Source of the DNA: a virus
Virus record (IMG/VR): IMGVR_UViG_3300046740_000384
Location: 1-21,898 of that record
Direction: 5' to 3' (one strand)
Length of the DNA: 21,898 bases
Of this stretch, positions 15,242 to 17,027 are shown piece by piece. The position numbers and the translations under genes were made by a program. The notes under the pieces were generated by a model that had not been told where the DNA came from, searched no databases, and saw nothing but the letters and a program-made list of their open reading frames with translations. The stretch's first letter is position 1. The number at the start of each line of letters is the position of its first letter.

Positions 15242-15565
15242 ATGTCGGGCGATCTGACCTCAGTGTTCTTCTATGACGTGATGAACCAGCATTCGTGCCA
15301 CGCCGAGGTGTGGCTGCTTATGCCGGGCGAAGAGGTGAGGGAAATCCTCTCGACGCTGCCGCAGATGGAGCCGCCCCGGGCGCTCGCGGCGTTCATCGGC
15401 GCGCTACCTGCGGGCGCGAACGAGGAGGCGGTCGTGCAGGTGCACGGCATCCCCTGCGAGACAGCGACGGACTGGTACGACAACTTTGCGACCGCCGCAG
15501 GAACGGCTATCGCGTGGGACCCTGCGGCTCAGCGCGAGATTACCGACTACGAGCAAGACGCTTAA
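15242..15565 (+). CDS. Hypothetical protein, 107 aa
   Basis: First gene of the rightward operon. ATG 15242 follows GGAGG by eight bases; the longer frame from TTG 15185 runs over the promoter and is not used. The protein has MSGDLTSVFFYDVMNQHSCH, AEVWLLMPGEEVREILSTLP, then AALAAF-like helical and EEAVVQVHGIPCETATDWYD. Acidic, with a likely alpha/beta fold. It stops 14 bases before the methyltransferase start. The family is not recognised. Confidence 0.7.
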   Translation: MSGDLTSVFFYDVMNQHSCHAEVWLLMPGEEVREILSTLPQMEPPRALAAFIGALPAGANEEAVVQVHGIPCETATDWYDNFATAAGTAIAWDPAAQREITDYEQDA

Positions 15566-15578
15566 AAGGGTGCTGTCC

Positions 15579-17027
15579 GTGCCCGCCTATTACAACGAGA
15601 TCGACCCCTTCGCAGCCGAATGGTTGCGGAGGTTGATCGCGGGCGGGCACATTGCGGCAGGGGATGTGGATGAACGGAGCATCGTCGATGTCAAAGCGGA
15701 CGATCTCCGGGGGTACAGCCAAATCCACCTGTTTGCCGGGATCGCGGGATGGTCGCACGCTCTTCGATTGGCAGGATGGCCCGACGACCGGGAATGCCTT
15801 ACCGCAAGCTGCCCCTGCCCTCCCTTCTCGTCCGCAGGCAAGAAAGCGAAGTGCCCACGCTGCCAGGGCGCTTGCCTTGTCTGGTGCCCTCGACGAACTG
15901 GTTTTGCAATATGCGCAGACTGCCAGCACGCTTGGCTTGCCGATGCCCGCCACCTTTGGCCGGAGGCTTGGCGACTCATCGCCGAGTTGCGACCTGCAAT
16001 CTGCTTTGGCGAGCAAGTCTCATCGCCTGACGGACTTGTATGGTTCGCCGGAGTTCGAGCTTCACTGGAAATCATCGGATACGCTGTTGGGGCCGAGGAT
16101 CGACCGGCTGCAAGCGCGGGCGCGCCCCATATCCGGCAACGGCTTTGGTGGGTGGCCAACCGCGCAGACGAGAGACGGAGCGAACAGCCGATCCGGTCAG
16201 GTGTCGCGAACGGGAGAGCGGCGCCGGAACCTCGACGACTACGTGGAACTGAGCGGGTGGCCGACGCCAGATGCGCACCCGGACCTGCCGAACAGTGGGA
16301 CGAACCGGGGGAAGAATTGGGGCGGCGAGCGCCGCCGACTGACGCCGCAGGGTTTAGGGAACGTAGCGGCGATGTCGGGGTGGCCGACACCCAGGGCGTC
16401 GGACGAGGGCGGTGCGCGGCAGCAGGACGGCAAGCGGGGCGGATCTCTGGTCGAGGCGGCAGCGGGTTGGGCAACCCCGACGCAGACCGACGCCGAGCGT
16501 CGGGGCAATGTCTCGACCGATCCGACGCCGAACGCGAACCTCAACGTGATGGCCGGCTGGGCGAGCCCGGCAGCGCGGGACTACCGGCACCCGAACGCCA
16601 GGAGCTACGCGGAACGCAGCAACTCGACCAAGGGCGAGCAGTTGCCGAATCAAGCGCACTTCGCACTGACAGGATGGCCGACCCCGCAGCCGGACAGCTT
16701 TCGGAGCCGATCCGGCGACCGAAAGAACGAGATGGGCCTCGACCAACTGGCGCGGACGCTTGCGGAGCCGGCTCCGGATTTTGGTCCGGATCAGTCTGGC
16801 TCCCCTGCCTCGACGGAAAAGCCCGCCGAGCGCCGGGTGCTGAATCCGCTGTTCAGCTTGTGGATGATGGGCTTCCCGAGGGAGTGGGGAGCGTGTGCCC
16901 CGACCGATTTCCGCTCGCGACGGCGAGGCCGGGCCGAGTCGGGATGCTGAGGGCATCCGGGAACGCAATCGTGCCCGAGGTAGCGGCTGCGTTCATCCGC
17001 GCCTTCATGGCAACGCAGGAGGACTGA
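15579..17027 (+). CDS. dcm: DNA cytosine-5 methyltransferase (Dcm-like)
   Basis: Transfers a methyl group from S-adenosylmethionine to C5 of cytosine. GTG 15579, with AGGG eight bases upstream, gives MPAYYNEIDPFAAEWLRRLI, a start typical of phage members. Motif I is HLFAGIAGWSHALRLAGW (about residues 50-66). Motif IV is SCPCPPFSSAGK with catalytic C80; the usual Gln after PC is Pro. A 25-residue Cys-rich insert follows (C92, C95, C99, C103, C112, C115), then RHLWPEAWRLIAELRP. Motif VI is FGEQV (E145), motif VIII HIRQRLWWVAN (184-194). The C-terminus has GRVGMLRASGNAIVPEVAAA, motif X. The variable middle is Arg/Gly/Asp-rich with repeated VAD. The gene shares its DNA with a second frame at 15670-16950. 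Likely protects phage DNA or marks regulatory sites. Confidence 0.85.
   Translation: MPAYYNEIDPFAAEWLRRLIAGGHIAAGDVDERSIVDVKADDLRGYSQIHLFAGIAGWSHALRLAGWPDDRECLTASCPCPPFSSAGKKAKCPRCQGACLVWCPRRTGFAICADCQHAWLADARHLWPEAWRLIAELRPAICFGEQVSSPDGLVWFAGVRASLEIIGYAVGAEDRPAASAGAPHIRQRLWWVANRADERRSEQPIRSGVANGRAAPEPRRLRGTERVADARCAPGPAEQWDEPGEELGRRAPPTDAAGFRERSGDVGVADTQGVGRGRCAAAGRQAGRISGRGGSGLGNPDADRRRASGQCLDRSDAEREPQRDGRLGEPGSAGLPAPERQELRGTQQLDQGRAVAESSALRTDRMADPAAGQLSEPIRRPKERDGPRPTGADACGAGSGFWSGSVWLPCLDGKARRAPGAESAVQLVDDGLPEGVGSVCPDRFPLATARPGRVGMLRASGNAIVPEVAAAFIRAFMATQED
15670..16950 (+). CDS. WPTP-repeat protein frame inside the methyltransferase gene
   Basis: A 426-codon frame, offset from the methyltransferase and fully inside it. 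It starts with MNGASSMSKRTISGGTAKST (ATG 15670 has AGGGG upstream; start uncertain). It has GSRDGRTLFDWQDGPTTGNA, SPSCDLQSALASK, YGSPEFELHWK, then six WPTP-like units (GGWPTAQT, SGWPTPDA, SGWPTPRA, AGWATPTQ, AGWASPAA, TGWPTPQP), ARDYRHPNARSYAERSNSTK, and LNPLFSLWMMGFPREW near the end. These match from memory a widespread phage family annotated as hypothetical or methyltransferase-associated. It carries an AEPAP repeat in frame. Either both frames are translated, or the family is a by-product of methyltransferase coding. I cannot decide from one sequence. Confidence 0.5.
   Translation: MNGASSMSKRTISGGTAKSTCLPGSRDGRTLFDWQDGPTTGNALPQAAPALPSRPQARKRSAHAARALALSGALDELVLQYAQTASTLGLPMPATFGRRLGDSSPSCDLQSALASKSHRLTDLYGSPEFELHWKSSDTLLGPRIDRLQARARPISGNGFGGWPTAQTRDGANSRSGQVSRTGERRRNLDDYVELSGWPTPDAHPDLPNSGTNRGKNWGGERRRLTPQGLGNVAAMSGWPTPRASDEGGARQQDGKRGGSLVEAAAGWATPTQTDAERRGNVSTDPTPNANLNVMAGWASPAARDYRHPNARSYAERSNSTKGEQLPNQAHFALTGWPTPQPDSFRSRSGDRKNEMGLDQLARTLAEPAPDFGPDQSGSPASTEKPAERRVLNPLFSLWMMGFPREWGACAPTDFRSRRRGRAESGC
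16762..16776 (+). repeat. AEPAP repeat, copy 5
   Basis: Exact copy of GCGGAGCCGGCTCCG. It reads AEPAP only in the WPTP frame (LAEPAPDF); in the methyltransferase frame it reads CGAGSG. Confidence 0.9.

Follow-up and report, generated by a model that had tools for sequence, protein, structure and literature searches.

Two open frames in one stretch of DNA

Does a phage cytosine methyltransferase gene carry a second gene in another frame of the same strand, and if so, what is the second protein for? The question is raised by a stretch of 21,898 nucleotides from an IMG/VR virus record (IMGVR_UViG_3300046740_000384; the whole stretch is called the window). A preliminary description of this DNA reported two same-strand stop-free frames, one with methyltransferase motifs and the other with GWPTP-like repeats, and offered two readings: overprinted genes kept together across phages, or a WPTP family that is a mis-called methyltransferase frame. 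The frames are present at 15339-17024 (methyltransferase) and 15637-16947 (WPTP), the sequence words quoted from them occur in the frames given, and motifs I, IV, VI, VIII and X and six GWPTP-like units were located. The region delimited there, 15579-16950, begins at the probable methyltransferase start, but its end is the stop of the WPTP frame, because the methyltransferase runs on to 17027. Both frames are on the plus strand; the terminase genes in the window are on the minus strand.

The methyltransferase frame, here alpha (15579-17027), is predicted to encode the 482 aa catalytic subunit of a C5 cytosine DNA methyltransferase from a probable GTG start, with AAAAGGG just upstream of the GTG. 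It matches PF00145 (E 4.7e-9) and PHROG 363 (E 1.2e-58), and alpha profile A1 retrieves M.HhaI (E 1e-15). The motifs that place it among the C5 enzymes are present in the expected order: motif I, HLFAGIAGWS (15726-15755); motif IV with the catalytic cysteine, TASCPCPPFS (15801-15830); motif VI, CFGEQV (16002-16019); motif VIII, HIRQRLWWVA (16128-16157); and motif X, LRASGNAIVPEVAAAF (16947-16994). Motif VI in this lineage is GEQV rather than ENV. By inspection, motif IX was not found in the alpha chain; a segment like it is present at 16840-16887, read in the +1 frame. The alpha segment directly before motif X is atypical in the window. Between motifs IV and VI, the window alpha also has a zinc-ribbon-like CxxC/CxxC insert (15852-15923; weak Pfam Zn_Ribbon_TF match, E 0.22) that is absent from most relatives.

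The WPTP protein, here beta, is read in the +1 frame relative to alpha as 420 aa from an ATG start (15688-16950), and is predicted to be a recognition and motif IX subunit. It matches PHROG 1008, 31772 and 27243. A Pfam search with beta had no match, and no profile match to PF00145 or to solved methyltransferases was found; beta is therefore filed as a subunit and not as a PF00145 member.

The evidence for two-frame coding from the window alone is modest. When the synonymous codons of alpha are shuffled, 4.5 stops are expected in the +1 frame, and trials with zero stops make up 0.2% (P 0.002); the GC-rich window has 13 open frames of at least 300 codons. We regard this as suggestive. Two-frame coding becomes decisive through the comparative data from other loci.

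Selection in each frame

Stops in the beta frame were counted at 69 non-redundant loci against a null in which the alpha protein was held fixed and synonymous codons were shuffled. There are 7 stops where 217 are expected, and 66 of the 69 loci have none; the control frame is undepleted (712 vs 660 expected). With beta held fixed, the alpha frame across the modules of 102 loci has 0 stops vs 308 expected, and the third frame has 574 vs 562. The P values are optimistic because the counts treat related loci as separate.

Substitutions show where along the gene each frame is constrained. Diversity at the fourfold sites of alpha is about 0.84-0.94 of expected through codon 96 and then falls to 0.4-0.55 over the beta core, with near-zero values at V116 (0.00), P108 (0.05) and V149 (0.04). 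The first ~60 residues of beta are barely constrained. A frame-agnostic nucleotide comparison used ungapped blocks, all 27,669 of them in one register. At alpha positions 2, 3 and 1, the difference rates are 0.133, 0.437 and 0.147 in the N-terminal part and 0.132, 0.123 and 0.295 in the modules, and they are mixed across the beta core and the motif IX region. Change thus peaks at alpha third positions in motifs I-VI and at beta third positions in the WPTP units, and is shared near VIII and IX; therefore, alpha is constrained at motifs I-VI, beta at the modules, and both near VIII and IX. Judged by these patterns of stops and substitutions, both frames are real coding sequence.

The stops and frameshifts that were to count against a second gene are thus rare in the beta frame, and the selection sought in the WPTP frame gives a strong signal in both the fourfold-site and the codon-position comparisons. 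The reading of the WPTP family as a mis-called methyltransferase frame was rejected on the stop depletion in each frame and the codon-position tests.

The beta translation start

A Shine–Dalgarno-like GGAG (15676-15679) lies 8 nt upstream of the beta ATG; beyond its sequence, it is marked by family-wide enrichment and by co-occurrence with the ATG. An ATG spanning alpha codons 34-35 (D|V) is present at 62 of 83 loci, where 36% would be expected to have it. The rare arginine codon AGG at alpha codon 30, which builds the Shine–Dalgarno sequence, is used in 25/99 vs 5.8%, and GGAG co-occurs with the codon 34-35 ATG (36/38 vs 24/61). A substantial minority of loci lack the GGAG/ATG arrangement, so beta must start elsewhere in those.

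Core, cassettes and motif IX-like end of beta

The beta core, SSPSCDLQ...GSPEFELHWK (15976-16071), is constrained in both frames. It is predicted as a helix and hairpin and is the sole part of beta that AlphaFold models confidently; the models are otherwise poor (pLDDT 55 and 65), with the modules predicted to be disordered on their own. A Foldseek fold search with beta gave no match.

Six modules follow, starting at 16150, 16255, 16378, 16465, 16555 and 16672 and ending at 16254, 16377, 16464, 16554, 16671 and 16806, the last limit being approximate; across all six, the alpha frame is filler. Module 1 is 76% identical to a module of locus L029. Module 2 matches module 2 of locus L012, with 78% amino acid identity in beta and 48% in alpha, and the nucleotide differences between the two number 8, 6 and 18 at beta codon positions 1, 2 and 3. 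From 0 to 6 units beginning GWPTP occupy the interval from the core to motif IX in any one beta. Among the 355 units collected there are 30 clusters of three or more, and members of the same cluster appear at differing positions in different proteins. By these sequence relationships, the GWPTP units are a shuffled cassette library. Non-redundancy of the modules inside a single beta is only suggestive (P 0.02-0.07). A count comparing module and core identity (250/325) is not relied on because it came from an ungapped core alignment.

The C-terminus of beta is nearly invariant (LNPxxSxWLMGxPxxW) and overlaps alpha just upstream of motif X; in the window, it is LNPLFSLWMMGFPREW (16840-16887). Its pattern resembles that of C5 motif IX, and the same element stands upstream of motif X in single-chain relatives. 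By pattern and position, then, the end of beta resembles motif IX. Searched against the PDB, neither the beta profile nor that of its motif IX matched a C5 methyltransferase.

Breadth of the alpha/beta pair

We call the methyltransferases of this kind lineage A. By tblastn, beta-frame homology is found in 53 phage records, where the features it falls in are nearly all named methylase or methyltransferase. Direct reading of the sequences shows open +1 frames in epsilon15, K1H, phiKX1, Edwardsiella eiAU, Rhodobacter RcIroh, Xanthomonas PhiXhv and others. Both frames are annotated in K1H and PhiXhv-18, phiKX1 annotates just part of beta as a "hypothetical protein", and most records list alpha only. 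The beta frame is also present, unlisted, in N15 gene 58 and in E. coli prophages. In K1 coliphages, including GU196278.1, the second frame is annotated as a "putative Mte8-like protein", a label that may derive from the name under which a database lists an EcoHK31I chain.

So that beta played no part in the choice of loci, a profile of alpha alone was used to scan IMG/VR. A beta-family ORF is in the +1 frame at 80/80 of the best alpha-selected viral loci, a set confined to alpha relatives near the seeds, and alpha is present at 80/80 beta-selected loci. Together with selection in both frames, this bears out overprinted genes that are kept together across phages. A further 83 loci, mostly from bacterial species genomes, have clean pairs in 78 cases and span, by record title, Pseudomonadota, Verrucomicrobiota, Nitrospirota and Leptospirota; in the other 5, the copies are broken or duplicated or there is an additional match. 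The GC content of lineage A loci runs from about 0.44 to 0.72, and the pattern holds at 44-45% GC.

Lineages B and C and the single-chain relatives

A "hypothetical protein" of a Sphingomonas paeninsulae plasmid (locus L261) led to lineage B, whose methyltransferase has the signature LSLCAGVGGL and ENV. At that locus (1760-2851; NZ_CP032828.1), the gene table lists the beta frame only, and the frame proved to overlie an unlisted methyltransferase. No WPTP protein away from a methyltransferase, which the preliminary description had asked after, was seen among the beta-selected loci of lineages A and B. Beta is in the +1 frame at 81/81 lineage B loci. Stops number 0 vs 164 expected in the beta frame and 2 vs 164 in the alpha frame across the modules. 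The module difference rates (0.129, 0.128 and 0.308) have the same phase pattern as in lineage A. In the first test, the third frame also fell short of its null expectation (447 vs 545), which makes this control less clean than that of lineage A.

The 60 contigs of lineage C were recovered by a DNA-level pattern of a related motif IX. In 40 of the 60, matches to the beta profile and a methyltransferase N-terminus are in one ORF, and in most of these motif X follows IX by about 30 residues; these single-chain relatives are some of the methyltransferases of phage contigs. In loci L367 and L380, a single frame runs through motifs I-VIII, several LPTP units, and motifs IX and X. In L353 and L384, units of the same kinds are in a +1 ORF, and alpha has IX and X. 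An overlapping +1 beta ORF is present at 49 of the 53 loci with an alpha ORF, and in some loci the modules occupy both frames. Motif IX is in the alpha frame at many lineage C loci, so its placement varies.

The module region of L367 matches the betas of lineages A, B and C with E values of 2.7e-9, 6.6e-15 and 4e-35. The target recognition domains of C5 enzymes sit between motifs VIII and IX (PMC3404938). From this match and the one-frame order of L367, the units occupy the recognition-domain position, and beta is best read as the recognition and motif IX subunit of a split enzyme. That position, and the motif IX-like end of beta, had been missed in the preliminary description.

A two-chain enzyme and its rivals

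We propose, with a probability of about 0.86, that overprinting at this locus yields a two-subunit C5 cytosine DNA methyltransferase, with beta as the cassette recognition and motif IX chain. Two chains would be made from one mRNA. Alpha would supply motifs I-VIII and X, with cofactor binding and the catalytic cysteine, and its stretch across the repeats, between VIII and X, would be open, unconserved filler. Beta, made from the internal start in the +1 frame, would supply the small conserved core, the exchangeable array of GWPTP cassettes and motif IX. We infer that alpha and beta assemble into one active enzyme in which the cassettes act as target-recognition modules. The assembled enzyme would methylate phage DNA, probably at several target sequences, which may allow escape from host restriction.

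Beta might instead be a real overprinted protein that is no part of the methyltransferase and merely shares its DNA, such as one with an anti-restriction or regulatory role. Its want of a structural match and the predicted disorder of the isolated modules are in keeping with that, yet alpha is without motif IX while beta ends in a segment like it, single-chain relatives hold the same units and the same segment between VIII and X, and the pair is kept in two methyltransferase lineages; we consider a separate protein improbable. Somewhat less probable again is a single fusion polypeptide, made when ribosomes undergo a programmed +1 frameshift out of alpha and into beta downstream of motif VIII. 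Lineage C loci with modules in both frames and the weak constraint on the beginning of beta would suit a frameshift, but the beta start has its conserved ATG and co-occurring Shine–Dalgarno sequence, and alpha is open through the modules with 0 stops, so motif X is reached, whereas a shift into beta would lose it. Finally, methyltransferase coding, base composition and repeated DNA cassettes could together have produced the WPTP frame incidentally, with no second protein. GC-rich DNA like that of the window does yield long open frames by chance, but the depletion of beta-frame stops is conditional on the alpha protein, the free positions in the modules are the third positions of the WPTP frame, the pattern persists at the loci of lowest GC, and single-chain enzymes carry the same units in-frame. 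This is already contradicted, and we give it next to no weight.

Beyond this locus, it seems probable, though we hold this less firmly than the two-subunit reading, that methyltransferases of a class widespread in phages and prophages carry exchangeable recognition cassettes in a second frame on top of the catalytic gene. Trading of cassettes would reshuffle specificity and alter only inert filler in the catalytic protein, and the cassettes would move between one-chain and two-chain and between in-frame and +1 layouts. If so, many phage methyltransferases would owe their specificity to cassettes, an annotated gene with a broken second frame should fail, and target motifs should track the cassettes.

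Relation to known systems

In M.EcoHK31I, too, the small chain is encoded in a different frame of the DNA that encodes the large one. M.EcoHK31I (YGGCCR) is a two-polypeptide C5 methyltransferase with the same split of motifs as alpha and beta, likened here by published motif layout: its larger chain has I-VIII and X and its smaller chain IX (PMC3404938), while our motif IX is assigned by pattern and not by profile. The two differ in that its predicted recognition domain is in the large subunit (PMC3404938), whereas here beta holds the cassette array and the corresponding part of alpha is unconserved. Of the matches from a search for an E. coli restriction-modification relative close to EcoHK31I, the three inspected are prophages. 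M.AquI is another natural two-chain C5 enzyme, as predicted for alpha and beta, but its small chain has half the variable region with IX and X (PMC3404938), and here X stays with alpha. The Bacillus phage C5 methyltransferases SPR, SPbeta, phi3T and H2 have tandem recognition domains for several targets (PMC8936443). By description, this is like what the cassette array of beta suggests, except that their domains are in one chain and one frame and the window array has a separate frame and chain. L367, unlike the window, has a single chain in which units stand in tandem between VIII and IX.

The three PHROG families and the Mte8-like proteins of K1 coliphages belong to the beta family; their labels are DNA methyltransferase or unknown, and no statement of a second-frame subunit was found for them. 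A C5 methyltransferase split so that its small chain has motif IX is thus already known. What is new is the cassette array in a second frame, in at least two methyltransferase lineages and in mixed layouts, and the switching of cassettes between frames. No description of overprinted phage pairs was found in the literature searched, which left out most subscription papers, and an earlier description is possible.

Annotation and irregular copies

One common group of phage proteins annotated as methyltransferase or unknown is a second protein in the same DNA, and most of the records examined, from phages, plasmids and E. coli prophages, do not list beta. The same-strand overlap is unusually long (>1 kb here) and well conserved, with selection switching frames along the gene, and it should be useful for calibrating overlap detectors.

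Several loci are irregular. L050 and L023 each have two alpha/beta copies about 2 kb apart on a single contig. In L196 and L231, from an Arsenophonus endosymbiont, the frames are in pieces and the copies are apparently decaying. Alpha is broken by a single in-frame stop in L038 and L169 (at 2732-2734 in L038), and beta is open. Indels in L070, L229 and L078 exchange the tails of the frames, joining alpha to the motif IX of beta or beta to the motif X of alpha; these may be either sequencing errors or real frameshifts. In L039 and L003, a long insert in alpha separates the motif IX overlap from motif X. L013, L014 and L016 carry an HNH-endonuclease-like insert, read in the beta frame, in the interval of alpha motifs IV-VIII (~3100-3800 in L013), and alpha is open across it as ~200 aa of filler.
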